Shown here piece by piece: positions 17,801-60,700 of a stretch of DNA of 64,000 bases (within the stretch, counting starts at the first letter, position 1; every line of letters begins with the position of its first letter). Source of the DNA: Warburgia ugandensis. Its lineage: Eukaryota > Streptophyta > Magnoliopsida > Canellales > Canellaceae. The stretch covers positions 49,913,880 to 49,977,879 of the forward strand of contig CP141132.1 in the NCBI GenBank assembly GCA_035236585.1. Reading direction: 5' to 3'. Under the pieces are notes generated by a model. The model was given only the letters and a program-made list of their open reading frames with translations, did not search any database and was not told where the DNA came from. Both the position numbers and the translations under genes were made by a program.

Positions 17801-18357
17801 ATAAGAATATGTGAGTTTATGATAAAATGTTGGATTATAAATTATACTTTAAGTTTCATATGCTTTCTTAAGATTTCCTACCACGCATAACTTGATGAGA
17901 TATTGTAAATGTTTGAATGTTTACAATATCTCAGATCTAGATGGATAGGAGTGGAGAAATACAATTCATGGGGATCAGCAATATTATAATTGAGTAAGGG
18001 TATATCTGTAGTTAAGTTTATTTGAAGGATGTAATAAAGATTTGTATTGTGTAGTTAGATGTTGGATTATACACTTTGGACATGTTATGTCATAATTACA
18101 GTGAGGCTAGGTAAGTGGACCATTGGATGGATCCTGTTTCTTTCTAAATTATTATATAATAAAAGTATCTATTTTCTACATTACATATGATTAGTGTGGA
18201 TAATTGCATTTGACATAGGGGATTTTTGCAAAGAAAAAAATGAATTTCAAAAAGAAAATATTTTTCTAATGTTAAAATATTTAGTTCTTTTAAAATATGG
18301 GCCCCATCTTTTCCAAAATAGATTCGAAAAAGTACTATAAAAACCCGAGTTATCACA
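14844..18357 (+). mobile_element. solo LTR of a chromovirus-type Gypsy element (3.5 kb)
   Basis: It starts TGTAATAATCC and ends CCCGAGTTATCACA, the same end types as the LTRs at 30282, 41806 and 57726. A perfect 5-bp target duplication, CTAGG, flanks it (14839-14843 and 18358-18362), with no internal region. A GC-rich block lies about 0.3-1.2 kb from its 5' end. A motif like the Tekay-type LTRs (CTATGCTAGGAGG, GGCCATCCGCCCTCC, 17180-17220) lies in the middle, and a perfect stem-loop at 17896. The GC-rich open frames at 15129-15326 and 15768-15953 are part of the LTR. Confidence 0.87.
17896..17933 (+). other. LTR stem-loop, solo LTR copy
   Basis: TGAGATATTGTAAA pairs perfectly with TTTACAATATCTCA across a 10-base loop. 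It sits about 430-460 bases before the LTR 3' end, after CGCATAACTTGA. Equivalent stems with different sequence occur in the four other chromovirus-type LTRs. Confidence 0.75.
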
Positions 18358-19199
18358 CTAGGTGACAGAATCCATGTTGTGCTACTGTGCCATAAGGCTT
18401 TGGTGCTACAACTCTCTTTACTCCAAAAGCTCTCTTCACCGTAGAATACTATGTGAGGTCACCTTTTAATCATTCAAACCATTCATCTTGTTTATATGCA
18501 TGACTAGCACTAGCAAGGCAGATAAGTGAATTGAATCCAATTAGATCTACGGGGATACAATTGGATATTGATTAGGGGCTTTGATCCATACAGTTGATAA
18601 AAAAAATCCCAATCTGTATCTCATCTAGGTGTGGATCACAGATTTGTAGATTTTCATCTATCTCGCATAAGCAAATAGATTTAATTTCATTTAAAGATCT
18701 AAACCATTAATATTATTTGAATTGCATTAGATAAGCTAAGTGTCAGATTTTGATAGAGTAGGTTCCTATAACTTAAGCTACTAAAGTTAAAAATTAGGAC
18801 CACTAATTTTTTTTCTTTTTCTTGGAGAAACAAAATAAGTGCTTAGGATCATCTAAATGCAATAATTTTTCATGGGTCATCTATTTGGGAGGTAACGAGC
18901 AAGATTAATGGTTTAGATCTTTCAAAAGAATTTAGTATTTAGTATATTATTTTCTAATTTAAATTCTCAAACTACCTTTTAAATATATATTCACTGATTT
19001 ATCCATTCAAATAGCATATTTAAAGGGTTGAATTAATTTAATCCACATTTTATAAGATCTAAACTATTCAAATGATAGGTCATGCCCACATTTTACAAAG
19101 TCTAAATCATTCAAATATAATATGTCATCTAGGATCTTGGGTTCACATTTAGAACATATAAACTATTCAAAAAATAGAGGCTCTAAGTATGACATGAGC
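18358..19199. repeat. resumption of the dispersed repeat, inverted-motif part
   Basis: No gene. The sequence holds several (A/G)ATCTAAACxATTxAAAT words in one orientation (about 18480-19110), the inverse of the words in the tandem array that follows, so the centre of a large foldback lies near 19130-19190. Confidence 0.45.
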
Positions 19200-19575
19200 T
19201 ATGATTTGGATAATTTAGATATTTTAATTTGTGGGCCCAAGTTTTGCCTGCTTTGTTATTTGCATGGTTTAGACATTTTCAAATATGGGTATAAGTCTTA
19301 CATGATATATTATTTGAATGGTTTATATATTTTAAAATGCTAGTACAACTCACATGTGAATGGTTTAGATCATCTAAATGTAGGGCCAACTCTCAAATGG
19401 CCTATGATGCTTGAATGGTTTAACCTTTTAAAATGTAGGCCCAACTCTTACATATCCTATGATTTGAATTATTTAGATATTCTAAAATGCAAATCTAAGT
19501 CTCACATGTCTTATGATGTCAACAATTTAGATCTTCTAAAATGGGGGCCCATTATATCCTATGGTTTAAATGAAG
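19200..19575 (+). repeat. about 54-bp tandem array, seven units
   Basis: Units start near 19200, 19256, 19311, 19357, 19411, 19464 and 19518. Each reads roughly ATTTGAATGGTTTAGAT, TTCTAAAATG, GGGCCCAA, then CTCACATG. Because 54 is a multiple of three, two open frames (19122-19343 and 19356-19592) run through it and spell an 18-residue repeat (YDLNxLDILKCGPKSHM-like). Some units are shorter by several bases, and I see no start context, splice pattern or homologous family, so I read it as DNA repeat and not protein. Confidence 0.7.
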
Positions 19576-20658: not shown

Positions 20659-21260
20659 TGTCATAGGCTGAGATTTTCAGACTCCCGTGCGGCACTTAGA
20701 TTGGCTTTTCACCCCGAACTAACTAAGTAAGCCTGACTTAAGCTCAAAGGAGAAGAACAACTGAAAGAGTACTTTGAAGGAACTTGTAGCTTTATTTCTT
20801 GAAGATGCTTACAACTCTCTTGGATCACTCCTTGATCACACTCTTGGATGGATCACTGGATGTCTTACAAGTGAGGAAGCTCCCCTATTTATAGGTGCTT
20901 ACCTCCTTCCACCTCCTTAATGGACGGTGGGGATCTTTACAAATGTTGACTATCCGACAATTGGAGACTATTCTAGAGTTCTCTCTAGAAGTCTCTGCAC
21001 AAGTCCATGGTTCCACCATATTCAAGATGGTCCTAGATAATTCTAGAGTATAGATATTTACATGAAGTATTGGGGGCTTCTAGATTATGGATCCTTTAGA
21101 TGGATCTAAGTCCTTCAAACTAAACCCGTGAGCTAAGCAGGCCTTCAATGGATTCCTCAACAGCAAACCTAAGTCCTTCAGGCCAGGTCCACGTCCTAAG
21201 TGAGCCCTCCTTAGAGGCTATAGGCCTTGGTCACGGGCTTTGCAATGTAAGTCTGTGACA
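20659..21260 (-). repeat. 3' LTR of the gag-only element
   Basis: The plus strand reads TGTCATAGGCTGAG to GTCTGTGACA. The minus strand carries a TATA-like CACCTATAAATAGGGGAGCT near the middle, followed by CTTGTAAGACATCC, and AATAAAG downstream, consistent with a promoter and poly(A) region. Confidence 0.92.
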
Positions 21261-21270
21261 TCCTCCCCCA
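21261..21270 (-). other. polypurine tract
   Basis: The minus strand reads TGGGGGAGGA directly before the 3' LTR, in the place used to prime plus-strand synthesis in LTR elements. Confidence 0.85.
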
Positions 21271-21697
21271 CCTAATAGCGTTGATGCCCTCGTCGACACA
21301 TCTTCACTGGTGTCGCATTCTTTGAATTTGGGCATATCTCATGTGGCCTTGTCCTCTTCATGAGGTGCCTAGCAGTGTCCCTCCCTTTGGACCTTGCTAG
21401 CCAACTACTCTTGTGCACTTATGGGACTTTCTTTGGTTCCTTTATGTTGGGTGTGTGCTTGCACACTTTTGCACTTTTGCATAGTTGCAAGTAGTCACCC
21501 CTCTGGCACTCCTCTTTTGCTATTCTCCATTGTTGTGCCTCTTGTACATTGGTGTAGTAGTTACCAACTCCTATGGTCCTTGCACATCTTAGCTTGGTCT
21601 TGTCCCTCTTGGAGTTTCCTTATTGTGACACACCCTTGTCATCAACTAGTCTCCCCTTGAACCCTTCAGACCTTAGCACCTTAATGGCTCCTAGATG

Positions 21698-23412
21698 TCA
21701 TAAGTCTAGTTGTGTCGATTCCACACTCTTTGTGGTTCCTTCTGTCAATTGCAAGGCAGATAGCATCTTCCCTTGCTCTTTTCCATTCTTCAACACTAGG
21801 ACTGCACAATGGGTCTTCTCATCAAAGAAGCTCGGCATTCCTAGGTGTGGCATAGGGACTGCTCTAGCCTTGGAGAGGAAATCCATTCCTAGAATAACCT
21901 CATAATCGTTCAAAGGTACTATAGTCAAAGTGATGTTGCCTTGCCACTTCCCCACCTTGACAGGTACGTCTCTAACAACTCCTAGTACGGACTTCGCTTT
22001 GGAGTTGACTGTCTTGATCAAGCTCTCATCCTTCTTCATCTTGAGGCCTAATCTCTTAGCCTTCCCTTCAAAGATGAAGTTGTGAGTAGCTCCCGTATCC
22101 ACTATAGCTCGTGTGCCTTTGCCTTTGAGACACACGTCCACATACATCAACCTTTTCCCAGTAGAGGGTTTAGGAACCTCCGACTTAACAGTGTTGAGAT
22201 ATTGTAAGGAAGATAGTCTATAATCTTCCCCGCTCCTTCCTTCTTCCCGATGTGCGATCATTGAGTTTAAAGCGTTCTTCTTTGGATAGTCCCGCATGAA
22301 GTGCGGTCCATCATAGAAGTAGCAAGCTCTCGACAGAGAAGCTTGTTCCTTACTCTTTCCCCTCCAGCTTGGTTTGGATGACTCAAGCTCGGTCCCATGA
22401 ACGCCTTTGTCTCTCCCACCATTGTCATGGCTACTCTTTTGGCCATTTGATTTCCCTTCATCTCTCCTTATTTTGACTAAGGATTCAGTTGCAGTAATGG
22501 CGGCGGACAAAGTAGAGACGTTATGGTGACGTAACTCCTGCTCTGCCCAATCCTTCAACCCACTGAAGAAGTACACAAATTTGTCTTCTTCAAACATATT
22601 GGAGATCTCAAATAATAGGTTAGAATACTCTGAAATATAATCCCAAATAGTCCCTGTATGCCTCAGCCATCGTAGCTTCTCCTTAGCCTCTATGCGTGCA
22701 TTCTTAGGATAGAAATGCACCTTAAGGTCATTCTTAAACTCATTCCAGGTGTTGATGGTGAACGTACCTCTTTCAATTTCCATGCTTCTCCTATGCCACC
22801 ATAATAGAGCATTGTCTGTGAGGTAGAGTGAGGCAGTAGCTATCTTCTGCTCATCTTCCTACATTTGTAAGTGCCAGAAGTACCTCTCAACATTCCAAAG
22901 GAATGTGTCAATCTCCTTTGCATCCCTTTTCCCTCCATAGCTCTTTGCTTAGGGACGTCAATCTTAGGGGTCTCACGAATTGCGTGAGTCCTATTTGCCA
23001 TAGCTTCTTTGCACAAGGATACATCCTCGCGCATTACCCTCATCTCATCACAGAGTGTAGCTAACTCTGCGAATAGCTTGTCAAGTTGGGTTTGGAACTC
23101 GACATGACTTGCACTCCTCATGGAGTTTAGACCGCTCTCCCACTCTCCCTTAAGCTCTTCCCCCATAGCTTCAAGGGACCCAAACGTTGAGTGCTCTACA
23201 TCTAGCTGATTGGAGATATCTGCAACGGCTGACTCCATCTTCACAAGTCTGGATTCCAAGGAAGAGACTAAGTCCTTGGACTTACCTCTTTTGTTATTCC
23301 TCCGAGCATCTTCACCAACAAGCTCCACATGAGAACCGTTTGCCATCTTTCTTCTCCTTGCTAGGATACGAACCTTCGCTCCTAACTTGCCGAACCTTTG
23401 CTCTAATACCAA
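21698..23412 (-). pseudogene. gag-protease coding region of the gag-only element, fossil
   Basis: In order on the minus strand: an N-terminal coiled-coil-like part (residues such as LVSSLESRLVKMESAVADI), a retrotransposon gag domain (NTWNEFKNDLKVHFYP, LRHTGTIWDYISEYSNLLFE), a zinc-knuckle-like region near CYFYDGPHFMRDYPKK, and a pepsin-type protease with the active-site motif VDTGATHNFI followed by VILGMDFL. The order is that of Gypsy-type gag-PR. It is nearly whole, with about one or two breaks. Nothing after the protease resembles polymerase. Confidence 0.85.
23395..23411 (-). other. primer-binding site, initiator-Met type
   Basis: The minus strand reads TGGTATTAGAGCAAAGG two bases inside the 5' LTR, close to the TGGTATCAGAGC consensus complementary to the 3' end of initiator methionine tRNA. 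Confidence 0.88.
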
Positions 23413-23413
23413 C

Positions 23414-24015
23414 TGTCACGAGCTGAGAATTTTAGACTCCTGTGCAGCACTTAGATTGGCTTTTCACCCCGAACTAACTAAGTAAGCCTAACTTAAGCTC
23501 AAAGGAGAAGAACAACTAAAAGAGCACTTTGAAGGAACTTGTAGCTTTATTTCTTGAAGATGCTTACAACTCTCTTGGATCACTCCTTGATCACACTCCT
23601 GGATGGATCACTGGATGCCTTACAAGTGAGGAAGCTCCCCTATTTATAGGTGCTTACCTCCTTCCACCTCCTCAATGGATGGTGGGGATCTTTACAAATG
23701 TTGACCATCTGACAGTTGGAGACTATTCTAGAGTTCTCTCTAGAAGTCTCTACACAAGTCCATGGTTCCACCATATTCAGGATGGTCCTGGACAATTCTA
23801 GAGTTTAGATATTTACATGAAGTATTGGGGGCTTCTAGATTATGGATCCTTCAGATGGATTTGAGTCCTTCAGGCTGAACCCGTGAGCTGAGCAGGCCTT
23901 CAATGGATTCCTCAACAATAGACCTAAGTCCTTCAGGCCAGGTCCACGTCTTAAGTGAGCCCTCCTTAGAGGCTGTAGGCCTTGGTCACGGGCTTTAAAA
24001 TGTAAGCCTATGATA
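23414..24015 (-). repeat. 5' LTR of the gag-only element
   Basis: Same length as the other LTR (602 bp). The plus strand reads TGTCACGAGCTGAG to GCCTATGATA. Confidence 0.92.
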
Positions 24016-30259: not shown

Positions 30260-30281
30260 GCAGCATTAATGAGTGAAAATA

Positions 30282-33200
30282 TGTGACGACCCAAGTTTTT
30301 CAACACTTTTTAATAAAACTTTTCGAAAGGTGGGGCCCCAAATTTTATAAAAACTAAAACAACAAAAAATAATTTCAAACAATTTTCATTTCTAGAAAAC
30401 CCTGAGGGTCAACCATTGACTAAAAGCTCAAAAAAAAAATTTCAAGTAAACATTTTTAAAATAAATTTACTACTCTAGGACTCATCCAGTCAGCAGCCAT
30501 ATCCCCACAACAATATAATCAAGTCTAATAAGATAGATATACATATACAGTCCATGTGGAATCATAACATACCTCCCAATGAGACATCTCGATCACTATT
30601 CGTCTAACTCTCCATCAGTCCTATCTTTCTCTCAATATCTGAGGCATTGCAACAATAACGCAATGCCTTAGAAAGCAATGCTTGGTAGATACATAGACAT
30701 TTAATGTAATAACAATGGAATAAAATCGAATAGCAATGCTGATATAATAAGTAGATCGATATAATGATTATAAGCAATGCCAATAAAATCTTATTAGTCA
30801 TATACGATAAAACATGCATCTCATGTATTTAAAACATTATATGATCTAATATAAGTGAGCATGCAATAACAACAGGGCACCCCAAGGTACGTGGGTCCCA
30901 CGAGTGTCCCATACACTCATATAACAGATCATGAGTACTCATATCAAACCTCTGAGTGTCATCATACCTAGGCATATAATAACATCTCCATGCTCATCAT
31001 GCAAGCACACAGAATAAGAGTATGGATCGTCATGCCGTAGTGGCAACCCTCCAGGGTCTCAACTACCGCCGCTCCCCATCAACACCATAATGGGAGACTT
31101 AATGTCCACCCCCATGGAAAGGCCCGAACTGGTAATGTGGACTATCCATGTTACTAAACCCCTACCGAAAGCCATCTGTGGGCAGGTGTCTATCATATCA
31201 TAATCACATCATAAATTTTGGAGGGTGGGTGGCCAGCCCTACTCCCTCCTAGCATGACATCCACTAGGTGAGAGCACCCGTCATAAAACACAAAACACAA
31301 AAATTGCGTATCTCGAAAACCAAGAGCACTCGTGGCTCACAATCCCCAAGGCATGCCCCTCATCTCGTGGTTAACCTCTCAAAGGATTAGCAACCAAGGC
31401 TCCACTGTCGTCCTTATTAAAACCCATTAGTTTTAGTGGTGCAATAAAGAAAGATAATTTCTAATTATGCATAAATACGCAATATCAATTTCATGAAACC
31501 ATTGATCATAAATCCATTTAATACAATATTAAAATCTAATATCAATCATAGCATAAAACTCTGAGTCTCACAAAATCGTAGACTAAATAAATAAGTGCAA
31601 TTAAATCACAAATCATGATGCTATGATAATGCAAGGTTTTTAAATCAAAACATAACATTAAATGTCGTCACCTACCTTAATGTGAGATAACCCACTTCAA
31701 GAGTGTAATCCTCTTAGCTCGTATGCACAGATGTACCTGTTAGTATCATAGTACCATTTCGTGTTATGCCTTTCATCATAGTGAAATCTATGGCGATCCA
31801 ACTGTTGGATCATTCTCTAAGAGCTCTAATTATGATTTAGTCCTTAATCCCAACATTACTTGTTATTAATTTGTCTTATCTTATGTTTATCTATTCATTT
31901 TTGTGTGTATCTAACGTTTATACCTTAATTTGATAGTTAGATCATCCTCAAATCAATAGTTTCCCAAGACCTAGTTCAGACCAATGGTTTAGATCAATTT
32001 CTAGAGTAATCACACATAATATGATCCTTAGAACTCTTATTTATTGTCATACGTTAGTTCGTTGTTCAGGTCCTGGGGCCTGATCACCTTTTGATCGGCC
32101 AGTCCTAAGTTATTGAATAATATTTTATAATTTAAAATTGGTCAAATATAAGTTTCCAAGTCAAATCTAAGTCCATGTCATTAAGACAATCGCAACGGAT
32201 GTTTCTAATTGTGATTTAGACCTCTGTAGCTCCAAAAATCAAGCTTTTTGTGAAAAGACTTCATAAATTAATACATATTAATTTACAGGGGGTCGAGTGG
32301 GCTATTTGCACCGATTTACACTAGTGGCTCAGTTTACACCAGGTTACACAGGCGTAAACTGGTGTCCCCAAGATGCTCTACTTCTAGAACGCACCGTGGA
32401 ACACATCGCATGCGTCCTGGTCATCGAGACGCTCCTCCGCGTGCGTCCCAATCACCAAGACGCCGAGCGTCCCTGCCTCCTGTGACCACGTGCAGGGCGC
32501 TCCCGCATGCGCGTGTTATGTGTGTGCACAATGATGCATGCCCACTCGTGCATTTGTGTTGGGGCGTCCCGGCATCAGCGACAGGGTGCCGATGCAGGAG
32601 CCGTCGCTAGAGAAGACGACCAGAGTCCGGTCGTTGCCAATGACTCCCCACAGGCCCAAAATTCGTGATTCTTTGCACCTTTTTGCTTGGAATTTCATGT
32701 ATATTCCATTTTTAACACTCTTTTTGATTATTTTGCCAAAAACTAGGGTTTTTTTCTCAATTTTTCTCACATTACTACAATGATTTTCAGGGTCACCAAC
32801 TGCTGGATCTTCCTCAAACTTAAAGGGTTTGTTCTTGGGTTCATTACACACTAGATGAACATGTGGATCATTATTTTAACACTATTTCATTGGTTTATTC
32901 CCACGCCTATAGTAGGGTATACCGAGTACCTGGAAGAACGACAAATCCACGTTGTTCTTCGACATCACTGGTGCAACTCAACATGTATGCTGTAAGTGGA
33001 AAGGGGGAAGAAGGGACATTACTTACCTTAGTCCATCGGCTGCCATTAACACTGCCAAAGAGATTTTTTTTTAGCTTTTTCGGCGTTGTGTCTTTGCAAG
33101 AGATTCCTAGAAATCCCGATTTCTAGAGTCGAGAGGGTTTGAGATGGAGTGATTGAACAGAAGTTGGGCTGCTATTTAACGCGAGTGATCCATTTTCCTT

Positions 33201-33503
33201 GGCCACCAACCAATTTTTTTGTTGAAGTAGTCGGATCTGATAGGGAGTAGACGGAGGTGCCGTTGTAAAAAACAACCCGTTGTATTTCAAGCCTCTCCAA
33301 ATTATCAAATTGCCCTTCTAACTTCAACAGCTCCTAACTTCTTCGTTTGAGCTCCGTTTTCTGCTTTCTTTATACTATTCAATTCCTATTGATGTGTACT
33401 TCTAGTTTTTTGGTTTTTAAAATCAAATTCCATGCATAAAATTTTTAATTTAATTAATTTACCTTATTACTAATTTAGGGTAAAAAAAATTGAGGATATT
33501 ACA
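30282..33503 (-). repeat. chromovirus 3' LTR
   Basis: Matches 37503-40723 throughout, including a GC-rich block at about 32360-32650 and a stem-loop at 30639-30670. The 62- to 111-residue open frames in the GC-rich block are LTR sequence. Confidence 0.92.
30639..30670 (-). other. LTR stem-loop, chromovirus 3' LTR
   Basis: The minus strand reads (T)AAGGCATTGC, a 9-base loop, then GCAATGCCTCA. It follows AAGCATTGCTTTC and lies about 360-390 bases before the LTR 3' end. The copy in the other LTR is at 37860-37891. Confidence 0.72.
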
Positions 33504-33518
33504 TCCTTCCCACCTTAT
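33504..33518 (-). other. polypurine tract of the chromovirus
   Basis: The minus strand reads ATAAGGTGGGAAGGA directly before the TGTAATATCC start of the 3' LTR. It is preceded by GAGGACGAAATTTTT, the familiar context in plant chromoviruses. Confidence 0.85.
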
Positions 33519-33549
33519 AAAAATTTCGTCCTCGAAATTTCGGTACATA

Positions 33550-33800
33550 CCTCTATGTAAATAACTCTAGTGGATCCTCCTCATCTCCTTTTCTGTCTCC
33601 CATGTGGTCTCCTATAGTGAATGATATTTCCAAAGGACTTTGACTAATGAAATAGTTTTAGTCCTCATCTTTTTGACTTTCGTATCCAGTATACGCACAG
33701 GTCTCTCCTCAAATGTCATGTCAAGCAGTAACTCTCCTGGGATCTGCTCAAGTTTGTGAGACAGATTTGACATATACTTCCTTTGAACAATTCTAGAGTC
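33550..33800 (-). pseudogene. chromodomain remnant of the chromovirus, fossil
   Basis: The minus strand gives readings such as LEQIPGELLLDMTFEERPVRI and LVKVLWKYHS followed by an ETTWE-type motif, which is the C-terminal chromodomain region of Tekay/Del-type integrases. It places the element in the chromovirus branch. Broken. Confidence 0.75.
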
Positions 33801-34299
33801 ATCCCCACATCACAATATATGATAATCGTGACAATAATTCCAGAGTCAACATCACTGAGCAATTCCGTAACATATATCTTCTTATCTTAACCCATCATGT
33901 AAATCAATGCCTATCAATCCTCTCTTTATATAATTTGACACATCATAACCACCTATGATGAACTTAACACAAACCAAGCTTCCATTTAGGACTTGATTAC
34001 TTATGTACAACTTAGCACTAGTAAATTCACTATATCTGCTTGATTCATTGCATCTCTGTTAACCCATAGGAAATCATTTACCAAATCAAAACTAGAGTAT
34101 ATAGCTCACCAATAGGAAATCATATACTAGTCACAACGACAACATATCAACTCACCAACATGAACTCTATGCCAATGAGAACCAATCTGCAACATGATCG
34201 TACTTGTAAGCACTTAGGAGCTTGCCATCTAAAAGTTTACCAGTGTGTCTAGCACCTACCCTCATTGGTTACTCCCCAGCATTGATTGTAAATTGAAAT

Positions 34300-34950
34300 C
34301 TGATTAATCATAAGGGAATAATCTCACATAATATTATATATCACTAACATCTTGGTGACACTCAATTCTACAGTGCCCAAAAATTATGAGACTAAGGGAC
34401 TATGAACCTCAGTCACCAATTTGGCTAATCTCAACCCCTTATGGTCTCAATAAACGACTCCTCTGTTATTCAAGGTGTTTCGTAAAGGAAATTCACTTCC
34501 TCTAACAATAACTCATGCTATAAATGTTTGCAATAAATGATGAGCCCTTAAACCTTTTGAATTTATACACAATGATTCCTTGTGCTCCTCCGTGTTCGTG
34601 AAGTATTCAATAATACTATCTATTAACACAATCATGGCTTATCAAAATAACATTTGAAAATTTAACCCATCATATCCATACATGCTGTCAGTGTATTTGT
34701 TCCATCAATTTGTACCATCCAGAACTAGTAACAATTATAACAAGTTCTAAAAATAATCTTAAAGATGACATACTCAGAATCCTAGGCTAGGTATAATCAC
34801 ACCTCAAATCACTCTCTACAAACACCATGTACCCTCAGGAATTAATCAAATAAATCATTAATATATGATTTAAATTATTAGTTTTCTACCGTGATATTAT
34901 CAAACGGATGAAAATCTGTGCATAATAAGAAAGATCTAGCTCTCTTCTCA
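34300..34950 (-). pseudogene. reverse-transcriptase remnant of the chromovirus, fossil
   Basis: The minus strand around 34570-34640 resembles the FIDDILVYS...EEHxxH segment of Gypsy reverse transcriptases, and the whole tract aligns by eye with 62300-63015 in the partial element downstream. Heavily decayed. Confidence 0.5.
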
Positions 34951-35699
34951 TGAAGAAGACTAATGCACTTCATGAAGACCCACTAAGCCTGTCAAAACTC
35001 TCATCAAAAGCTCGTATAGTTGGAACTTTGTTAGCTCAATTAGGAACATCTCACAGGGCATTCAGAGTAAGTAATGTTATACCTAATGCCTAATTGACAT
35101 CAATATCAATCTCTTGTGGCAAAATCATGAAACTCCTCAGGCAAAACCATGAACTCTTGCGCAGCATCTTTTTGCTCATTCCATAATTGCTCATGGTACC
35201 CCATAATCACACAATTAAGGAATACCTAGTACCTTCTAAAAAGTACTGTACTACTTTTAAGATAGAAACAACACAACTCTTAAAGATGCCTATTCTTACA
35301 CAAGTGAGGCAAATAGCTATCCAGTTACACCAGAAGTAATCTTCTTATCATAGAATTCACTATCTCCAAATTAGAGAGTCCATTCTAAGGATAATATTAC
35401 AATCAATCATATTGAGTGGAATGAAATCAACATTCATCCTATCGCTCGTTATCTCCACCACTCGTCCCTAGTCATACTTACAAGTTTCCATAACCCTTTT
35501 GCTAGTATCCTTACATCTGATCCCAGATACTACTGTATATTCACAAATATATTCCTCAAAGCGTTAATACATAAAGTCCAAAATCACTAGATCCTAAACC
35601 AATAAGTACTCAAGCATGTTTACTAGAAATCAAGAAAATATTTTCCATTACCCAAATTAAGGTCTATACTTGCTTTCAAGTAATGACAAAGACTCATCA

Positions 35700-36180
35700 C
35701 TACTAATGTGGAGCCATTTCTGCCCCATCTCCAATGTTAGTCAATCTGACTCATGTTCTTATGAAACAGTCTCTATCGAATACTCTGTCTCCCCACAGTC
35801 AAAACATTTTAAAGGATTGTAGCTATAATGGCTGTTGTTGCTGCTATTACCGCTATTGCGATAATCTAATAACTCCAAGACGTAGCTGTCTAGGTGTCTG
35901 TTCTTTTACTAATGTACTTTCTCTTGTTCACATCCTAATCATGTCTAATCAAATGTTGCTGGTTCAGTGGCCCCTGTAATTATGTCCGAGTTTCTACGCT
36001 CAGCTTGAGTCCCAAGAGGATATCTCTCGATAACATAGAGTCCAATTCTATTGCCTTTGTCACCAATGTAGGATGCGCTACCATCACCTGATTTCTCAAT
36101 CCAGGAGCCAACATATCATAATCTATTTGTAGCCTCCTTACCCAACATAAAGAAGTCAGGGGCCTATCAATCAATTATAT
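35700..36180 (-). pseudogene. gag remnant of the chromovirus, fossil
   Basis: The minus strand shows a gag-like stretch (APGLRNQVMVAHPTLVTKAI) and, further on, a zinc-knuckle-like KCFDCGET. Both fit the C-terminal half of chromovirus gag. Decayed. Confidence 0.55.
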
Positions 36181-37485
36181 ATTCCAGTTCAATACTATTG
36201 AACCATTTAATTTCTCTACTCTAAAGCAACAAACTCTCATCGTGTCACCAAATTCTCATAAGACAAAGATATTGATCATTATTAGCCTTTCTAAGAGTCT
36301 TTCATATAAAGTCTCAGCAATGGAGGAACTTGATCTCCCAAACAACCATAATTAGAATTCTCATAATCATATTTTTGGTGTTCTCACTTCCACTATTTCA
36401 TTTCCTTTAATTAATCAAATATTCCGTGGTCATATTTATCAAATCATTTATAACCATGAACCTCACATCCAATGTGATTAATATTTCATAATGACTTTCT
36501 TAGCCATTTTAGGTCACATTAAAATCAATATTTAATAAATATTCTCATAAAATAGTTATCACATCCTCCAGGGCTATGCACTTTCAAATCATAATTAAAA
36601 CCCCAATAAAATTCATAACATTAACTTTTCACAGAGGTCTGGTTATCAATATTTTTGTGCACATAAGAACTTATAAATTTCAACTCATAGATCAAGTAAT
36701 TCATCTATAGAATATTAATTATTATTCCATCAATTGTCAATGATTTTCATTCATATTATATTTTATTCCTCAACTCAATCCACTTTAAGTTTAGATTAAT
36801 ACAATACTTCTTTAAGATTCTCAAGTTCGCATTTGTTGTAACGATCATTGATCTTGCTCAATTGTAGTTACAATAGCCTTTATACTCTTTCAAAAATTTA
36901 TAAACACAGTCCAAGTTATAACTTGAATTCTCAAAAGTAATTTATGTATATATATATATATCTTCTATCATATAGTAAAGTTTTCACCTAGAGAACTTAT
37001 TCACAATCTTTATTCTAATAATTTACTCACCATTAACCATAATACTCTATAAAGCATCATCGTACTGTTCTCACATTAAATATTATATTCACAGTACGTT
37101 TTCTCCATTAGCAAATCATCTATCAACATGAATGTTCTCAGCTAGAGACATTAACTAATGCATGTCATGTATTGATTTCTTACCCTTAAGAGCTCCAACA
37201 TTCTGATAAGAATTTAATTTTCCTTTAGTTGGTCGTTTTCCTTTTTCCATGACTATTCATGTTTCCCACTTGAATCATTATCTATTAATGATAAGATTCA
37301 ACTATATATATGATTTTCACTCTATCCTTGCAGTTATTAACTCAACTCCTAACATCATTAAATGGTGTTTATTCCAGTTTCATAATTTACAAAATGATTT
37401 ACTCATTTAGCTCCTATCAGTTCTAATTCTCACCTTGGATTGTCATCTTCACATGGACTTTTGGGATTGGCTGTGAGTAGATGAA

Positions 37486-37500
37486 CTTGCTCTAATACCA
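37486..37500 (-). other. primer-binding site of the chromovirus
   Basis: The minus strand reads TGGTATTAGAGCAAG two bases inside the 5' LTR, of initiator-Met type. Confidence 0.87.
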
Positions 37501-37502
37501 AC

Positions 37503-40500
37503 TGTGACGAACCAAGTTTTTCAACACTTTTTAGTAAAAATTTTTGAAAGGTGAGGCCCTAAATTTTATAAAAAATTAAACAACGAAAAACAATTTCAAA
37601 CAATTTTCATTTCTAGAAAACCCCGAGGGTCAACCATTGACTCAAAACTCAATAAAAAAAATTCAAGTAAACATTTTTAAAATAAATTTAGTACTCCAGG
37701 ACTCATCCAATCAACAACCACATTCTCATAACAATATAATCAAGTCCAATAAGATAGATATACATATGCAATCCATGTGGAATCATAACATACCTCCCAA
37801 TGAGACATCTTGATCTTTATTCGTCTAACTCTCCATTAGTCTTGTCTTTCTCTCAATATCTGAGGCATTGCAACAATAACACAATGCCTTAACAAGCAAT
37901 GCTTGGTAGGTACATAGACATTTAATGTAATAACAATGGAATAAAATTGAATAACAGTGCTGATATAATAAGTAGATCGATATAATGATTATAAGCAATG
38001 CCAATAAAATCTTATAACGTCATATATGATAAAACATGCATCTCATAGATTTAAAACATAATATGATCTAATATAAGTGAGCATGCAATAACAACAGGAC
38101 ACCCTAAGGTATGTGGGTCCCACGAGTATCCCATACACTCGTATAATAGATCATGAGTACTCATATCAAACCTCTGAGTGTCGTCACACCCAAGCATACA
38201 ATAACATATCCATGCTCATTATGCAAGCATATAGAATAAGAGTATGGATTGTCATGCTGCAGTGGCAGCCCTCCAGGGTCTCAACCACTGCCGCTCCCCG
38301 TCAACACCATAATGGGAGACTTAATGTCCGTTCCCATGGACAGGCCCCGTCCAGTAGTGTGGACTATCCATGTTACCAAACCCCTACCAAAAGCCATCTG
38401 TGGGTAGGTGTCTATCATATCACAATCACATCATAAATTTCAGAGGGTGGGTGGTTGGCCCTACTCCCTCCTAGCATGACATCCACAGGGTGAGAGCACT
38501 TGTAATAAAACACAAAACACAAAAATTGCGTATCTAAAAAATTAGGAGCACTCGTGGCTCACAATCCCCAAGGCACGCCCCTAATCCTAGGGTTAGCCTC
38601 TCAAAGGACTAACCACTAAGCCTCCACAGTCGTCTGTATTAAAACCCATCAGTTTCAGTGGTGCAATAAAGAAAGATAATTTTTAATTATGCATAAATAC
38701 GCAGTATCAATTTCATGAAACCATTGATCATAAATCTATTTAATACAATATTAAAATCTAATATCAATCATAGCATAAAACTCTGAGTCTCACAAAATCG
38801 TAGACTAAATAAAGAAGTGCAATTAAATCATAAATCATGATGCTATAATGATGCAAGGTTTTTAAATCAAAACATAACATTAAATGTCGTCACCTACCTT
38901 AATGTGAGATAACCACTTCAAGAGTGTAATCCTCTTAGCTCGTACACTCAAATGTACCTGTCAGTGTCATAGTACCATTTCGTGTTATTCATTTCATCAT
39001 AGTGAAATCTATGGTGATCCAACTGTTGAATTATTCTCTAAGATCTCTAATTATGACTTGGTCCTTAATCCCAACATTACTTGTTATTAATTTGTCCTAT
39101 CTCATATTCATCTGTTTGTGTTTTGTGTGTATATAATGTTTATACCTTACTCTGACGATCAGATCATCCTCAAATCAATAATTTCTCAAAATTTAGTTTA
39201 GACCAATGGTTTAGATCAATTTCTAGAGTAATCACACATAATATGATCCTTATAACTCTTATTTATTATCATACACTAGCTCATTGTTTAAGTCCTAGGG
39301 CTTAATCACCTTTTGATCAGCTGGTCCTAAGTTATTGAATAATATTTTATTATTTGACTAATTTAAAATTGGTCAAATATAAGTTTCCAAGTTAAATATA
39401 GGTCCATGTCATCAAGTTAAATCTAGCTCCCAAAATCAAGCTTTTTGTGAAAAGACTTCATAAATTAATACATATTAATTTATAGGGGGTCGGGCAGGCT
39501 ATTTGCACCGATTTACATTAGCGGCTCAGTTTACACCTAGTTACACTGGCGTAAACCAGTGTCCCCAAGACGCTCCACTTCCAGAATGCACCGCGGAACA
39601 CACCGCATGCGTCCTGGTCACCGGGACGCTCCTCTGCATGCGTCCTAGTTACCAAGACGTCGGGCGTGCCGACCTCCCGTGACTGCCAGTAGGGCGCTCC
39701 CATGTGCGCGTGCTATGTGTGTGAGTGATGACGCTCGCCCGCGCTTATGTTTGCATTGGGGTGTCTCGCATGGCATCTTAGCGTCAGCTACAGGGCACCG
39801 ACACAGGAGCCGTCGCCGGAGAAGACGACTGAAGTCCGGTCGTCATCGGTGACTCCTCAAGTGCCCAAAATTCATGATTTTTGCACCTTGAAATTTCATG
39901 TATATTCTATTTTTAACACTCCTTTTGATTGATTTTTCCAAAAACTAGGTTTTTTCTCTATTTTTCTCATATTCCTAAAATTCTCTTACGTACTGTTCTT
40001 GGTGATTTTTGGGGTCACCAGCTGTTGGATCTCCCTCAAACTTAAAGGGTTTGTTCTTGGGTTCATTATGCACTAGATGAATGTGCGATCATTGTTTTAA
40101 CACAATTTCGTTGGTTTATTCCCATGCCTATAGTAGGGTATACTGAGTATTCAGAAGAACGACAAATCCACGATGTTCTTCGACATCGCAGGTGCAACTC
40201 AACATGTATGCTGTAAGTGGAAAGGGGGAAGAAGGGACATGACTTACCTTAGTCCGTCATCTGCTGTTGACGATGCCAAAGAGACTTTTTCCAAGCTTTT
40301 CTAGTGTTGTGTCTTTGCTAGAGATTCCTAGAAATCCCGATCTCTAGAGTTTAGAGGGTTTGAGATGGAGTGATTGAACAAAAGGTGGGCTGCCATTTAA
40401 CGCGGGTAATCTATTTTCCTCAGTCGTCGACCAATTTTTTTGGTGAATTAGTTGGATTTAATAGGGGGCAGAAGGGGGTGCTGTTATAAAAATATAGCCC

Positions 40501-40723
40501 CCTATATTTCAGCCCTTCCAAATTACCAAATTGCTCTTCTAAATTCAAGGGTTCCTAACTTCTCCTTTGAGCTCCATTTTCTGTGTTCTTTATACCATTC
40601 AATTCCTATCAACATGTACTTTCTAGTTTTTGGGTTTTCAAAATCAAATTCCATGCATAAAAAATTTAATTTAATTAATTTTCCTTATTACTAATTTAGG
40701 GTAAAAAAATTGAGGATATTACA
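37503..40723 (-). repeat. chromovirus 5' LTR
   Basis: Full partner of 30282-33503. The minus strand begins TGTAATATCC at 40723 and ends at TTCGTCACA. It contains the stem-loop at 37860-37891 with a G-U-type change in the stem. Confidence 0.92.
37860..37891 (-). other. LTR stem-loop, chromovirus 5' LTR
   Basis: The minus strand reads AAGGCATTGT, loop, GCAATGCCTCA. Compared with the 3' LTR copy, one stem C has become T, giving a U-G pair and keeping the stem. Confidence 0.7.
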
Positions 40724-40728
40724 AAATA

Positions 40729-43843: not shown

Positions 43844-44174
43844 GAGTGTATTTGAGACACTCATAAGGCTGGACCATATCCAATGTTTTGTTGGCTTTGA
43901 CATGCATTCATGACATTCTATGGATACTGAATTTTTTTGATTTGGCATACATGTATTTACGAATTTTTTTTCATGTTATGCATTTCTTGATGCCCAGGTT
44001 TGATATCGCTTTGCTTATATCATGGACTTCATGTACTGTTCTTTGTGGATTATGATGTTTTGTGCATATATGTTCTTCTTAAGGGAACTTCTATGATCTT
44101 GATATCTTGCGACATGTGATTTTATATCGTTTATGGTAAATTGAATGTAAATCACCTACACAAGCATAGCTTGC

Positions 44175-44203
44175 TGAGGCACTGCTTTGTTTGCAATGCC
44201 TCA
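44175..44203 (+). other. LTR stem-loop, rearranged element
   Basis: TGAGGCACTGC, a 7-base loop, GCAATGCCTCA: 11 bp with one mismatch. It is preceded by CAAGCATAGCTTGC and lies about 610-640 bases before the LTR 3' end. Confidence 0.72.
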
Positions 44204-44817
44204 GATACGGAAAGTGACTCCAAGTTGATGCATTGATAGAGCAGGTAAAAGTGACGGTAGCTTTCCAGTAAAGCACTGAGGATGTTCAGAGATGAAAGGT
44301 TTGTTCAAGACTTCACTTTGGGTTTTGAGTATGGATTGTACTTTAATTAAAATTGTAAGGTGACCTAGATGTAGAAATATGAATTCATGTTGGATGTGAT
44401 GGCTGTATGGAGGGACCCTGGGTCTTTTGTCGTGACTATATTTTCTAATCCATTGTTGGAGTATATTTTATTGAAAATAGCATTTGGTTGTGGATCGGTG
44501 TGGAGACTGAGTCTCCCATATGATATATCTTATATATTATTTATTAGGTGGTTTTGTATTGCATTGATCATATGCAATGGTCCAAAATACAGAGGAAACT
44601 CTATCAAATTTTTGTTAGAAATGGTATTTCATTTCACTGTTAAATCCGTAGTTTTGTGTTTTTATGACTCCTTGGATTTTTGAAGGAAATGCTTCCGTTT
44701 AAGTTTTTGTTTTGGTAATTTTAAACTTCAAAGTTTTTAAAACAAGTATCCCGACTGTTTTTGTAAATTATTATTATATTATTGAGAAAAAAAAAAAACC
44801 TGGGGTGTCACAGTGTC

Positions 44818-50706: not shown

Positions 50707-50709
<3 letters not shown>

Positions 50710-54949: not shown

Positions 54950-56130
54950 CTACCTCAGCATGCTAGTGTAGTAGAGTTAAAAACAGGAGCAATCCAATTA
55001 CTCTCAAAGTTCCATGGGCTAGACAGTGAGAGTCCTTATCTACATCTTAAGAAATTTGATGAAGTATGTGCCACATAGAATACACAAAACATCACCTTAG
55101 ACATAGTGTGGCTTAAAATTTTTCCCTTTTTTGTGAAGAAAAAAGCTAAAATATGGTTTAATTCATTGTTAGTAGGTTCCATAAGGACCTGGTAAGAAAT
55201 GGCTAGGGAATTCTTTAAAAAAAAAATTCTCTACACAAAACAAATACACTACATCAAAAGATAATGAACTTCACTTAGAAGGACAAAGAGTTATTCTACC
55301 AATGTTGAAAAATGTTCAAAGACTTATTACTTGCATGCCCACATCATGAGCTTCAAGCCATGATGTATAATTAATTTCTTCTATGAAAGGCTTAGTTCCG
55401 ACATGCACCAGTTCGTAGAATGATGTACAATGGCAACTTCTTCGATCAACAACCAGAAGAGGCAAAGGAGTATTTAGAATAGCTCGCTGAAAGTCCGCAA
55501 ACCTAGGCTGACTCGAAAAGAGTTGAACATCCAGATGAGCTACAAGCCATGATGCATCATTAATTGCTTCTATGAAAGGCTTAGTTTCGACATGAACCAG
55601 TTTGTAGAGATGATGTGCAATAGCAACTTCTTAGATCAATAATTAGAAGAGGCAAAGGAGTATTTAAATGGCTTGCTGAAAGTCCACAAACCTAGGCTGA
55701 CTTGAAAGGAGTTGAACATTCAGATAAGCTCAAGCCCACCACTCATGTTAGGAGAGGCATGTATGCCATGCCTGAGAAGATGAACTTAATGCCAAAGTAG
55801 CATTCCTAGACTGAAAAGTAGAGGCCATAGAGATGGGGAACATCACATCCAAAAAAGTCAAACAAGTGTATAGCATCTATAAAAGTACCTCATATCCTAC
55901 TTCGTAATTCCCCACAAATCCAAAATTCAAAGCGGTACTTCATGAATAGGCCAATGCCCTAAATGCATATAGAAGACCTTTCTCCCCTTACTCTGAGACA
56001 TATAATTCCAATTGGAGAAACCATACAAATTTTAGTTGGACAAATATACTAACTACCAATGTCTCATAAACCGACTCATACTAGCCTCATGAACAAAATC
56101 AAGGACACACTACTCCAGCCCCATTCCAAC
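54950..56130 (+). pseudogene. gag of the Tat-like element, fossil
   Basis: Readable pieces in order: AIQLLSKFHGLDSESPYLHL, KKFDEVC, LVGSIRTW and EMAREFFKKKFST, then the FYERLxSDMHQFVE-type region, and YSETYNSNWRNHTNFSW near 56000. These match the gag of Tat-type Gypsy elements. A 189-bp tandem duplication lies inside (55348-55725). Broken many times. Confidence 0.75.
55348..55725 (+). repeat. 189-bp tandem duplication within the fossil gag
   Basis: The block GAGCTTCAAGCCATGATG... at 55348 begins again at 55537 (GAGCTACAAGCCATGATG...), and the first bases of a third start at 55726. The period of 189 bases equals 63 codons. The two copies differ at scattered sites. Confidence 0.85.
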
Positions 56131-56329
56131 ACCAACCTCTTGCTCCTAGATCTTACATGCCCCCATCCAAAAAGCCTATAGAGATGTTACCATTATTTGG
56201 AGTAGTAAAAGAAATGAGAAGGATGGGTCACAAAAGACTGATTAGGTAGAAAGATTCACTACAGATAGAGAAAAATCTAAAGAGAGGGAGACCACTCCAC
56301 CTGTTGAACCATGCCCCATTCATGCTCCA

Positions 56330-56880: not shown

Positions 56881-57725
56881 ACTTACAGGAGTAAATTAGG
56901 ATTTTTAGATCAAAATTCGTAACACATGAATTTTTGACCTAATGAAGCAAAAGTTTGATATTTTGTAGGTCCAAAGGTTAATCTGAGGTAATTTTGTGAT
57001 TAATCATCTTTTCTTAGGATTTAATTAGAGATATTTTTACTTTTGTAGGAAGAGAGATGATGATCTGATAGCCGAGATTGATCAAAATGAATATTGAAGA
57101 TCAAGATCAAAAGATGGAGTTAAAGCCTACGAGTCATCAATCCAACACGAGATCAAGGCCAAGGATGATAATGGATGTGATCACAGGAGCTAAAGGTGGC
57201 CAAAATGGGCCCATGAAGTAAGCCATACATTTCACCACCTTTGCGTGGGATCCATTCAAGCCACCTTAGCAATTAAAGCCATGAAAAAGGATGATATACC
57301 CTACAAGCTACTCAAGCCTTGAAGCCACTTAAGTGACTAAGGAATGAGCTATCAAAGTTAGTCGTCAAGCCAAGGAGGAGTGTCACATGGAGTCACACAA
57401 TTGGAGCATTAATTCAAGCAACTTTTTTATGTTAAGAGTGATTTTTAAGGGATTTTATGAGATTAATGTAAAAGATAAGATGATCATGAATTAAGGGACC
57501 CATAAAGAGAGAAAAACCCATTTTTCTAATCCATTTCCCAACCCTAATCCACCCATCTTACTAAGGTGCAATCATCCAAGAGGAGGATGCCCCCCTTTTT
57601 TAACTGGAGATCAAGTGGTTTGCTAAATAGGAAACCTTAGATCTACTTCAATCCAAACAACTTTAAAACCATAGATCTTTATACATCTTTCTAAACCTTA
57701 TTCCTTAACTTTCCAACAACCAAAC
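56881..57725. other. unassigned stretch before the second chromovirus
   Basis: No domain recognised. TTTTGTAGGAAGAGAGATGATG (57039-57060) and the gene-poor, A-rich character could belong to an LTR or the non-coding part of a Tat-like element. Confidence 0.3.
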
Positions 57726-60700
57726 TGTGACACCCCAGGTTTTTCCCAACAATATAATTCAAAATTTTAAAATGTCGGGATCCCTGTTTTAAAAACTTTG
57801 ATTTTAAATTTGACTATAAACAAAAATTTGAATAAAAAGTGTTCATTTCAAAATCACTAGATCCATACAACCACAAAATCAAGGATTTTAGTGGTGAAAT
57901 GATATTTTCATTTCTACCAAAAATTTGACCAAGTCTCCTCTGTATTTTAAACCATTGCCATATAACACGTGTGATACAACATCTCCTGATGAATACAATA
58001 ACATAAAGCAACACCTAGGAGACTCAGTCTCCATGCCCATCCACCTAGATCAAATACAATTCTTGATAAAATTATATACTTCAATGGTGAAGAATAAAAA
58101 TCAAAGATATGACAACATTGTCGAGGGTTTATCCTTTCATAGCCATTACATTCAACATGAATATATCCATACATCCAAGTCATAATGTAAATTATCCCAA
58201 TATATAGTCCATAAATAACAAATGAGGTAAGGTTCTCAACAAACCATTTTCATTTTTGAAATCTCCTCTATACATCGTTGAAGGCTGTCATCACCTTTGC
58301 CTGATCTATCAATATGTCAAACCTGCTATCTTTCTCTGCATTTGAGGCATTACAAAAATATCATAATGCCTCAGCAAGCTATGCTTGTGTAGGTGACCAC
58401 GTTTAATATCAAACAAAGAATAGGTAGCATGACATATAAAGATCAGGGTTTATGATAAAGCTCATGGATGTGAAACATTTATATAAGAAGTTGAATCATT
58501 AGATATCAAGGATGAAATGATGCATGAATAATAATTAGTTAGAATCAAATACAATAACCGATGAGGATATGATTTCGTGCATAAAATGTAGAAGTATCAT
58601 AAACCAAATACCATGGCATGCATAACATGATTACTGTGTGCTTATGAGACTGGTAGAGCTAAATACAACAAATCTATCATATTAAAGCATGAATGCATGT
58701 CATGAATAAAAGGGCATGCAACTCAACCATGTCCCTCGAGTGTCCCACAACACTCTCATATCTGGCTATGAGTACTCATACCAACCCTCTAGGTCCCTCA
58801 CCTTTTGCACACTAGGTAGCTTTCCCAGCCCGTAGGCCCGCCCACATAGGCTTCACATTGAGGATGCATTGTCATGTTGTACATGCATTAGGATATAATT
58901 ATCTAGATGTGTCTATAACTACATGCCCATATAGAACAAGTGCATGGATTTCTATGCTGTAGTGGCAACTACTTCGGGGTATCAACCACTACTGCTCACT
59001 GTCGACACCAAAACATGAGACTACTATCCACTGAGGCATGGGAGTGTGAATGGTGTGGGTGGCCAGCCCATGATTATCACAACTGCACTCTGTTTGCCCA
59101 CATATCAAGGCGCGTGTCTATCATTTATATACTTAGAGGCTAGTGGGCAACCATATGACCCTCTTAGCATAGCATCCACCAGGTAGAACACTCATCATAA
59201 GTCAGTGAAAATATGAAATCGAGTATAAAAAATCCATGCATGACCATCCTTGATAAAATCAGGTTGATAAAGTATTTTAATGTATCGATAATCATGTATC
59301 AAAATCCATGTATAACATCCTCAAATAATCCAATTGATGAAGCATATAATGTATCAAGAACAGTGCATGAATCATGTAAAATGAGAAGATAGTATAAGCA
59401 TTAGCATCACATGTTGAATGACAATCCCAGGGAAATCATGGGGTTGGTTTACATATCCATACATCAAATTATCCATGTGAATAAGGCCATCTAGTAAATA
59501 ATCATGATCTAAAATATCATAAAAATATTAAATGTAGTCACCTACCTCAAATGAAAAACTACTCATCTGTATCTCTCAAATCAAACAGGCTCTTATCTAG
59601 CTCAGTCCGCAATAGTCTCATCACCTTGATACATGTCACTTCCAGTTCACCCTTAGAATCCAAATTATCTAAATTGGATCCTTAATTATAAAACAAAATT
59701 TTATTTTCATATCTCAATATATCATGTTTCAATACAATCCAACTGATTACAATCATGGAATCTCAAGATGGGGCTTGCCCTAGTTGGCTAATGATTCAAA
59801 TCACACTAAATCAGCATTAATAACTATCTGATTTCTCTTCTTAATTATATCATCACATATTTCAGAGCTATCATGCTCAAATAATATGAATCTTAGTTTA
59901 TTTATTATTTAATTAACCAATTGGGCATTATTACATGCAATTCATGCTCAATCTTATCTAATTACAACCAAATCAAATGGCTAAGATACTAATCTTACCT
60001 TGTCCAAATCAATTTGAATGACATTTGGCTGTCTGCTTGGCTGGATCGTCAACTGATCACCTCAAATGTGCCCAATCTCAGATATCCATATTGATCTAGT
60101 CACAATTCTGTACTTGATGGCCCTAGATCAAATAACAAATTAGTAATTCTAACCAAATAATCCAATTAAATAATCTGAATGGTATAGATCATAGAACTTG
60201 ATCTAATTTCATACCTGGATCCTCAATTGATCTCAGCTATTGATCAAGATTGGCTAAATCACCTAAAAAATGCTTCAGATCTAAGATATCTTGATGGATA
60301 TTGATTTACACTTCATGAGGATCACAATGGGCTACTTAAATAAAAAAAATAATGTTAGGTCATCATAGATTAGATGATTTGAAGTTCAATTGAAGATATA
60401 AGCAAATCAATAGTTAGATCTTCCTAGATCAATGAATGTGAAGATGGGTATTGTTCCTCACTTTTCAAGGAACATGAGGGTTATCTCGTATCTCCAAGAT
60501 CCTTCCTGTATTAGCTAGAGTAGATAATTGAAGTTCAAGGGTTGAATTGGGTCTATTGAGTCAACTCGACTCCCCCAAAATGAGCCGGGAGTGAGTTGAC
60601 TCAATGAGTCAACTCAACCCTGCCTTGCTAGAAATAGGGAAGACAGGGGATTGACGAATGGTGGTGACTATCAGGTTATCATTTGCCTAGCCTCGACGGA

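Follow-up and report, generated by a model that had tools for sequence, protein, structure and literature searches.

The long terminal repeats (LTRs) of a very abundant retrotransposon lineage in Warburgia ugandensis share a block of about 50 bases with a ten-pair hairpin at its core, and this hairpin, kept in thousands of old copies amid changed surroundings, is probably a working part of the element. Our preferred reading, to which we give a probability of roughly 45%, is that it is a conserved cis-acting hairpin in the RNA of Tekay-like chromoviruses. The block would thus act as a hairpin in the element RNA and, because LTR sequence is transcribed there, would sit at the start or the end of the genomic transcript, or at both, where it would most likely be a recognition structure for a step of replication such as packaging, dimerisation, strand transfer or 3'-end formation.

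The hairpin block in the window and in the genome

The window, i.e. the whole stretch of 64,000 nucleotides of contig CP141132.1 that was analysed, contains five stem-loops that an earlier note had placed at an equivalent position in five LTRs (Table 1). All five lie where they were said to lie, with folds of -11.4 to -17.4 kcal/mol, and three of them (30639, 37860 and 58343) are on the minus strand; those at 30639 and 37860, however, belong to the two LTRs of one element (30282-40723), so the sites represent four insertions rather than five. The common upstream context holds as well, a degenerate 22-base pattern matching every site with 0-2 mismatches, as does the distance of 0.36-0.65 kb before the LTR 3' end when read in element orientation (at 37860 the stem base is 389 nt away from the end of the LTR). 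A sixth match to the pattern, at 16553 with 3 mismatches, is at chance level (0.58 expected). Only two of the five stems are fully Watson-Crick over ten pairs; the stems at 30639 and 37860 have A-C at pair 2, and that at 44175 has C-A at pair 8. The 58343 stem, in its TGAGGCATTA/TAATGCCTCA form, is alone among the 29 aligned members of its group in having both bases of pair 10 changed, and at 17896 the long loop is itself paired.

Table 1. Features of the hairpin-bearing LTRs in the window
Feature	Position	Strand	Remark
Upstream shared motif CGCATAACTTGA	17884..17895	+	22-base pattern; decayed form of small inverted repeat
Stem-loop, AT type	17896..17933	+	RNAfold -17.4; 14 perfect pairs and extended inner stem
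Likely 3' end of 17896 LTR, TATAAAAACCCGAGTTATCACA	18336..18357	+	relatives end alike, some with primer binding site
Target-site duplication TATTT	30277..30281	.	low-coordinate side
3' LTR (TGTAATATCC...GTCACA)	30282..33503	-	
Stem-loop, GC-II type	30639..30670	-	in 3' LTR of element 30282-40723
Upstream motif AGCATTGCTTTC	30671..30682	-	22-base pattern; precedes 30639 stem
Purine-rich tract AAGGTGGGAAGGA	33504..33516	-	one T; adjoins 3' LTR
Primer binding site TGGTATTAGAGC	37489..37500	-	tRNA-Met type; 2 nt past 5' LTR
5' LTR	37503..40723	-	86.2% identity with 3' LTR
Stem-loop, GC-II type	37860..37891	-	in 5' LTR of element 30282-40723
Upstream motif AGCATTGCTTGT	37892..37903	-	22-base pattern; precedes 37860 stem
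Target-site duplication TATTT	40724..40728	.	high-coordinate side
Upstream motif AGCATAGCTTGC	44163..44174	+	22-base pattern; 44175 stem
Stem-loop, GC-I type	44175..44203	+	single C-A mismatch, pair 8
3' end of 44175 LTR, CTGGGGTGTCACA	44800..44812	+	primer binding site absent directly after
3' end of 58343 LTR, CCTGGGGTGTCACA	57726..57739	-	
Stem-loop, GC-I group	58343..58373	-	private A-T at pair 10
Upstream motif AGCATAGCTTGC	58374..58385	-	22-base pattern; 58343 stem

Hairpins as such are not rare in the window, and the evidence is therefore their shared position. We set aside hairpin number: perfect arms of at least 9 (loops 3-20) occur 13 times in the window versus 3-12 times in 20 dinucleotide shuffles, and arms of at least 10 occur 6 times versus 0-7. 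Across the 1.12-Gb genome, three exact patterns of the block occur 2413, 4112 and 5624 times, and reversed control patterns 1, 0 and 0 times. The block runs from CCTAC through a small inverted repeat (CAAGCATWGCTTG) to the ten-pair stem, TGAG(GC/AT)ATTG...CAAT(GC/AT)CTCA, often followed by GATA, and lies about 0.38-0.64 kb upstream of the LTR 3' end; in many copies the stem is bordered by CCTA and GAT/AAT. Among 60 copies picked by the bases preceding the stem (the stem-blind sample), 53 form 8 or more of the 10 pairs at the site, versus 98 of 2640 control windows (Fisher p = 6e-63); in 34 of these copies none of the 112 other 40-nt windows has a fold energy as low as that of the site, and at most three windows are lower in 53. 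Loop lengths are mostly 9, 10, 11, 17 or 18 while the arms are kept, the loop-closing pair is C-G, T-G or T-A in 91 of 98 copies, and arm diversity is lower than loop diversity in all three LTR groups into which the copies sort (GC-I, GC-II and AT; in the AT group, the search pattern itself had set part of the 5' arm in 30 copies).

Could the hairpin be ordinary family resemblance, the members of a repeat being alike and sharing a hairpin without special cause? Copy numbers are huge, and the groups are indeed related outside the block: the LTR at 30282-33503 and the LTR region of 58343 share two patches, of 60 nt at 80% and of about 100 nt at 72%, and stretches of the inner regions of their elements match at 65-73%. 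Against this, 12-nt windows within the three groups have median identities of only 0.46, 0.54 and 0.76 to the window copy, whereas the arms are near-invariant across them. Family resemblance is thus largely contradicted, and we regard it as highly improbable. Near flanks give no 60-bit match between groups, and the block is the best-conserved stretch that the three have in common, in copies that are not fully independent, some being both LTRs of one element (e.g. L009 and L010, 7.2 kb apart). Together with the stem-blind result, this bears out the proposal that selection acted before the copies decayed: selection on the block is well supported, and selection on RNA pairing weakly so.

As to the lineage, chromoviruses are described as having a tRNA-Met-type primer binding site (PMC3605345). 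In element 30282-40723 such a site lies within 3 nt of the 5' LTR, as expected of the Tekay clade, and this window element also has the purine tract before the 3' LTR and the short target-site duplication. An LTR end with a match resembling the primer binding site (3 substitutions allowed) was found in 22 of 102 parsed copies, in 17 of which the LTR end is 384-644 nt from the stem base. A Ty3-type gag lies behind the LTR in the AT group (L085, Retrotrans_gag, E 2.5e-16), one of three pieces scanned against Pfam; the other two (L010 and L073) gave no Pfam match, and gag was thus seen in the AT group alone. Five decayed pieces gave no match to retroelement families in Pfam and one weak match, below the cut-off, to a plant PHD finger. 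A 65-aa piece of the window element, whose inner part is decayed, is what we take to be chromodomain-like; it has no Pfam match at E 0.1. The lineage is best read as a very abundant, Tekay-like chromovirus.

Pairing, wobble and the competing explanations

The earlier note argued from compensating changes, and here the picture is mixed. Two neighbouring pairs do change on both arms together: two of the groups have G-C/C-G there and the third has A-T/T-A. Exact copies number 2701 for GC/GC, 6047 for AT/AT and 11 for AT/GC hybrids (hybrids counted in one direction). In the alignment, all 49 AT-group copies have A-T at pair 5, and none of the 29 GC-I and 20 GC-II copies does. The switch coincides with one LTR group and so may be one event; in other words, it is covariation, but probably a single historical change. 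Within groups there is no surplus of double changes (2 found versus a null mean of 3.25 in 98 aligned copies), and covariation is confined to these two adjacent pairs between groups rather than spread over several independent pairs. At 8 of the 10 stem positions the commonest pair is identical in all groups, and these positions therefore carry little information on pairing; the highest corrected column-pair score joins u-7 with r4, which is not a base pair. The alignment of 98 copies omits L001 (the 17896 locus), L022 (the L079 locus), L037 (parsed, not a real stem) and L015 (stem not alignable); L066, one of 103 sequences, lacks the 5' arm and was unparsed.

Wobble pairs are not favoured either. 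One-step variants at pairs 5 and 6 comprise 171 G-U and 210 A-C (p = 0.051), a direction opposite to the RNA expectation in a comparison of limited power; the stem-blind sample has 19 and 21. Copies L069-L098, picked for a 5' arm with TGAG and a base other than G, were left out of this comparison. Over all ten pairs, the A-C pattern has 3993 matches, the 2701 unchanged copies included. An apparent G-U excess at the loop-closing pair (T-G 21 versus C-A 4 in 98 aligned copies) was set aside: by eye, the 100 listed of the 2701 copies hold 11 T-G, 8 C-A and 1 T-A, and several of the GC-II T-G cells sit at CpG.

What, then, has kept the arms alike? One answer is a DNA-level element, in which each arm, like the small inverted repeat, is bound in the promoter or enhancer of the LTR by a protein of the host or of the element, and pairing arises only because the two sites are inverted. 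The near-parity of G-U and A-C variants, expected where strand is irrelevant, fits this explanation, as do the conserved primary sequence (the same letters in all groups at those 8 of 10 pairs), the flanking CCTA and GAT/AAT, and the LTR palindromes of Sireviruses, which are described as cis-regulatory (PMC10760457). The arms, however, are spaced 9 to 18 nt apart, which is unusual for a fixed dimer site, and the preference of the protein would need to shift for the same two bases to have changed on both arms. Intact arms around loops of 9-18 nt are more in keeping with a hairpin than with a rigid protein site made of two half-sites. We consider the DNA element possible, if unlikely, and slightly favour the RNA-level reading over a DNA palindrome.

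Alternatively, template switching during reverse transcription or replication may have made the palindrome, the switch being one arm copied to the other and the block being selected for something else. A single such event accounts for the GC/AT difference, with A-T at pair 5 confined to the AT group, and the eleven hybrid stems and the independent look of within-group changes agree with it; but pairing is near-perfect in all three groups while the loops change, and the arms remain less diverse than the loops. We think this origin improbable. The conserved RNA hairpin remains our preferred reading.

Its position in the transcript is another matter. The site had been placed near the presumed R/U5 border, which the sequence does not bear out: TATA-like sites cluster at different offsets from the stem in each group (-110; +254, -126 and -68; +123), so that neither end of the transcript can be located from the sequence, and promoter placement by such sites was abandoned, no position being common to the groups. 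Rfam, ribozymes included, gives no family at gathering score in the window, and a lenient search (E up to 1) of 4 of the 98 loci gave two matches, both below gathering score and off the stem.

Significance and relation to known systems

A block of about 50 bases that outlasts LTR turnover offers an anchor for classifying plant Ty3 LTRs, whose length variation is described as too great for one published modelling effort (PMC3601003), and is a concrete target for locating RNA start, end and recognition in plant Ty3 elements. If its RNA role is true, an abundant plant retrotransposon lineage would have a conserved structured element. A broader proposal, which we hold to be rather doubtful, is a two-part cis-acting RNA module, the small CAAGCATWGCTTG hairpin followed by one of 10-17 pairs, at the ends of Tekay-type genomic RNA; kept across several LTR families amid LTR divergence, it would be the plant equivalent of the structured leader of retroviruses and usable as a lineage marker. 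Among the matches listed in a literature search (titles and abstract openings of open papers), no such element is described for Tekay LTRs, and a text search with the motif letters gave a single, unrelated paper.

Lentiviruses carry the TAR and poly(A) hairpins in the R region. Like these hairpins and the stem-loops conserved in long R regions, the Warburgia hairpin is inside the LTR and has both arms conserved; those belong to another host and clade, and a place in R for the present one is conjectural. The work on long R regions did not succeed in modelling LTRs of plant Metaviridae. PAL6 of Ty3 is also a palindrome in a hairpin of a Ty3-type element, with a role in the genomic RNA; PAL6, however, is 6 nt long, is located outside the LTR (within GAG, going by the order of parts in the paper) and is experimentally supported, whereas the Warburgia hairpin is in the LTR and sequence-based (PMC11381356). 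Sireviruses likewise have palindromes in plant LTRs but belong to the Copia superfamily, unlike the Ty3-type lineage here, and the same source describes maize Ty3 elements as generally without an obvious peak of miRNA-like structure (PMC10760457). Finally, the Conserved Hairpin Site of fungal GalEa elements lies directly past the 5' LTR in elements that lack a primer binding site, whereas ours is inside the LTR of elements with an ordinary one; the two share conserved arms around a variable spacer, of 12-41 bp in GalEa (PMC5445492).

The stem-loops and their elements

All five stem-loops described in the earlier note were recovered when the sequences were read and folded. They share a ten-pair core, TGAG(GC/AT)ATTG...CAAT(GC/AT)CTCA, that is fully Watson–Crick at two of the five sites; three sites lie on the minus strand. 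The note placed them in five LTRs; the five sites are present, but 30639 and 37860 belong to the two LTRs of a single element, which are direct repeats of 86.2% identity with TG...CA termini. This element has a primer binding site 2 nt past its 5′ LTR, a purine-rich tract before its 3′ LTR and the same five bases, TATTT, at both outer flanks. The Jukes–Cantor distance between its LTRs is 0.152, which we take to represent a few million years at rates commonly assumed for plants. We assign the lineage to the chromoviruses because of this primer binding site, purine-rich tract and duplication, together with one gag match in a copy of the AT group (defined below); a Pfam scan of decayed inner pieces did not confirm a chromodomain, and the label Tekay is partly our assumption.

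A separate structure at 20659–24013 looks like an LTR element with gag and protease only, a type that we presume to be TR-GAG; a second ORF scanned inside it gave no match.

Coordinates of the features discussed (window positions unless contig C1 is named)
Feature	Position	Strand	Detail
Stem-loop	17896	+	Ten Watson–Crick pairs
Stem-loop	30639	-	A-C at pair 2
Stem-loop	37860	-	A-C at pair 2
Stem-loop	44175	+	C-A at pair 8
Stem-loop	58343	-	Ten Watson–Crick pairs
LTR element	30282-40723		Holds 30639 and 37860
LTR of this element	30282-33503		Holds 30639
LTR of this element	37503-40723		Holds 37860
Related LTR region	58731-59031		Versus LTR 30282-33503: two further LTR patches, 60 and ~100 nt, 80% and 72% identity
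Gag/protease element	20659-24013	-	600-nt direct repeats, 93.7% identical, around 2.2 kb
ORF within it	21698-22858		386 aa; matches Retrotrans_gag and gag-asp protease
Tandem repeat	55346-55736		189-bp unit, two copies, ~89% identical
Repeat series	C1: 41,931,762-41,965,939		Five same-strand TACCAAGCATTGCTT matches
Hybrid stem (L044)	C1: 5997403		GC-II copy

Abundance and conservation of the hairpin block

The stem belongs to a block of about 50 bases that is abundant in the genome. Exact searches of both strands of the 1.12 Gb assembly (14 contigs) gave 2413 matches to ACAAGCATAGCTTG, 4112 to TACCAAGCATTGCTT and 5624 to AAGCATAGCTTGNTGAGH, with 1, 0 and 0 for the reversed controls. Matches to ACAAGCATAGCTTG and AAGCATAGCTTGNTGAGH partly overlap; TACCAAGCATTGCTT and AAGCATAGCTTGNTGAGH never fall at the same place, and there are therefore at least 9736 exact copies of the block context. 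Among the matches listed, the regular spacing of one TACCAAGCATTGCTT series on C1 (8.53–8.55 kb) suggests LTR elements arrayed in tandem with common LTRs.

The hairpin is also found when copies are chosen by the bases preceding the stem, with the stem itself outside the search pattern. We took the first 30 loci listed for each of ACAAGCATAGCTTG and TACCAAGCATTGCTT, all on contig C1, and counted Watson–Crick pairs between ten-base arms separated by 7–20 nt. Both arms are readable at a permissive threshold in 59 of the 60 loci (L066 has lost its 5′ arm, and L037 is readable with no real stem). At least eight pairs form in 53/60, at least nine in 48/60 and all ten in 29/60; control windows from the same loci give 98, 18 and 0 of 2640 (Fisher p = 6e-63 for at least eight pairs), and mononucleotide shuffles of the stem site reach eight pairs in 68 of 3000.

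When the flanks of 102 sequences (~300 nt each side, hairpins excluded) were compared by BLAST and joined at 60 bits, they fell into three groups, named by stem pairs 5 and 6: AT (51, including two doubly counted loci), GC-I (31) and GC-II (20). Near flanks are unlike between groups, and CCTAC, the arms and the bases past the stem are common to them. The search patterns themselves impose some of the upstream match. Among features that they left at least partly free, CCTA lies within 26 nt upstream of the stem in 8/8, 19/30, 26/29 and 23/30 copies of four samples (for L039–L068 the pattern fixed its TA), and the bases after the 3′ arm are GAT or AAT in 7/8, 18/30, 28/29 and 26/30. At -34, 12-nt windows are conserved in both GC groups, a hint that the block may extend slightly further upstream. 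Because the groups are related elsewhere too (Table), with inner-region matches of 65–73% between the elements compared there, the block is the best-conserved of several shared stretches. We conclude that it is under selection in LTRs of this Tekay-like lineage.

Two further stretches were seen downstream. One, conserved in AT and GC-I copies between roughly +220 and +254 relative to the stem, is a possible second cis element (12-nt window identities of 0.76 and 0.88 in AT, 0.84 and 0.69 in GC-I); it holds GGATCC in the copy at 17896 and GACCCTGGGTC in that at 44175. The other is the palindrome GGAGACTGAGTCTCC, located between roughly +320 and +340 relative to the motif in some GC-I copies (L025, L036, L037 and L038 among them); of the 30 loci L009–L038, 11 contain it when up to two mismatches are allowed.

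From stem base to LTR 3′ end is 384–644 nt in 17 of 22 copies having an LTR-end and PBS-like match; the other five distances (58, 819, 946, 1282 and 1334 nt) look spurious or rearranged. The suggestion that the stem sits near the R/U5 border is not supported: within 400 nt either side of the stem, TATA-like sites (best 12-nt windows) peak at -110 in GC-I (12/31 copies), at +254, -126 and -68 in AT (13, 12 and 11 of 50) and at +123 in GC-II (11/20), a disagreement that precludes assigning U3, R and U5 from sequence.

Paired changes and the nature of the hairpin

Is the pairing itself what is maintained? In an alignment of 98 copies, all 49 of the AT group have A-T at pair 5, where 28/29 GC-I and 17/20 GC-II copies have G-C; pair 6 is T-A in 48/49 and C-G in 26/29 and 18/20. 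The remaining cells are one-sided changes, except in L044, a hybrid that joins an AT-type 5′ arm to a GC-type 3′ arm. Genome-wide, 2701 exact copies carry G-C/C-G at these adjacent pairs and 6047 carry A-T/T-A, with 11 hybrids in the one direction counted (L044 and ten other places), which could reflect recombination between families or stepwise decay. The chance that four substitutions exactly fill two pairs is about 1/45 to 1/405, assuming two changes per arm and either transitions only or any base. When 1035 column pairs are ordered by corrected G statistic, pairs 5 and 6 come third and fifth. The crossed pairs 6-5′ and 5-6′ come second and seventh, which is what a single joint change at all four positions would produce; an unpaired column pair comes first, and the other eight stem pairs come no better than 90th. 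Within groups there is no excess of double changes (2 observed against a shuffle mean of 3.25, with 432 of 500 shuffles reaching 2) or of Watson–Crick cells (981 against 982.3). The compensating change claimed earlier thus survives as a switch of pairs 5 and 6 on both arms; the covariation is real, yet may rest on a single switch, for which template-switch tidying of a palindrome could account.

The block would act as a hairpin, and we slightly favour a role in RNA because the loop varies from 9 to 18 nt with the arms kept (18, 17, 9 or 10 nt in AT, mostly 10 or 9 in GC-I, 11 or 9 in GC-II) and because both arms switched jointly. The main rival is a DNA palindrome bound by a regulatory protein. 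In a perfect stem the arms are identical as local duplex, which makes a C-to-T change in one the mirror image of a G-to-A change in its partner; selection for pairing in the sense RNA should make G-U variants commoner than A-C. At pair 6, single-step changes to the GC stem leave G-U in 90 copies and A-C in 101; at pair 5 the figures are 81 and 109 (171 versus 210 in total, p = 0.051). The ten pairs of the stem-blind sample give 19 versus 21; neither comparison supports the RNA role. Most one-step variants probably post-date insertion and are free of selection, and the test is thus of limited power.

No Rfam family reaches its gathering score within the window, and we found no description of this block in Tekay LTRs in the openly accessible literature. 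Structured LTR elements are a known kind, to which we rate this hairpin block as an addition.
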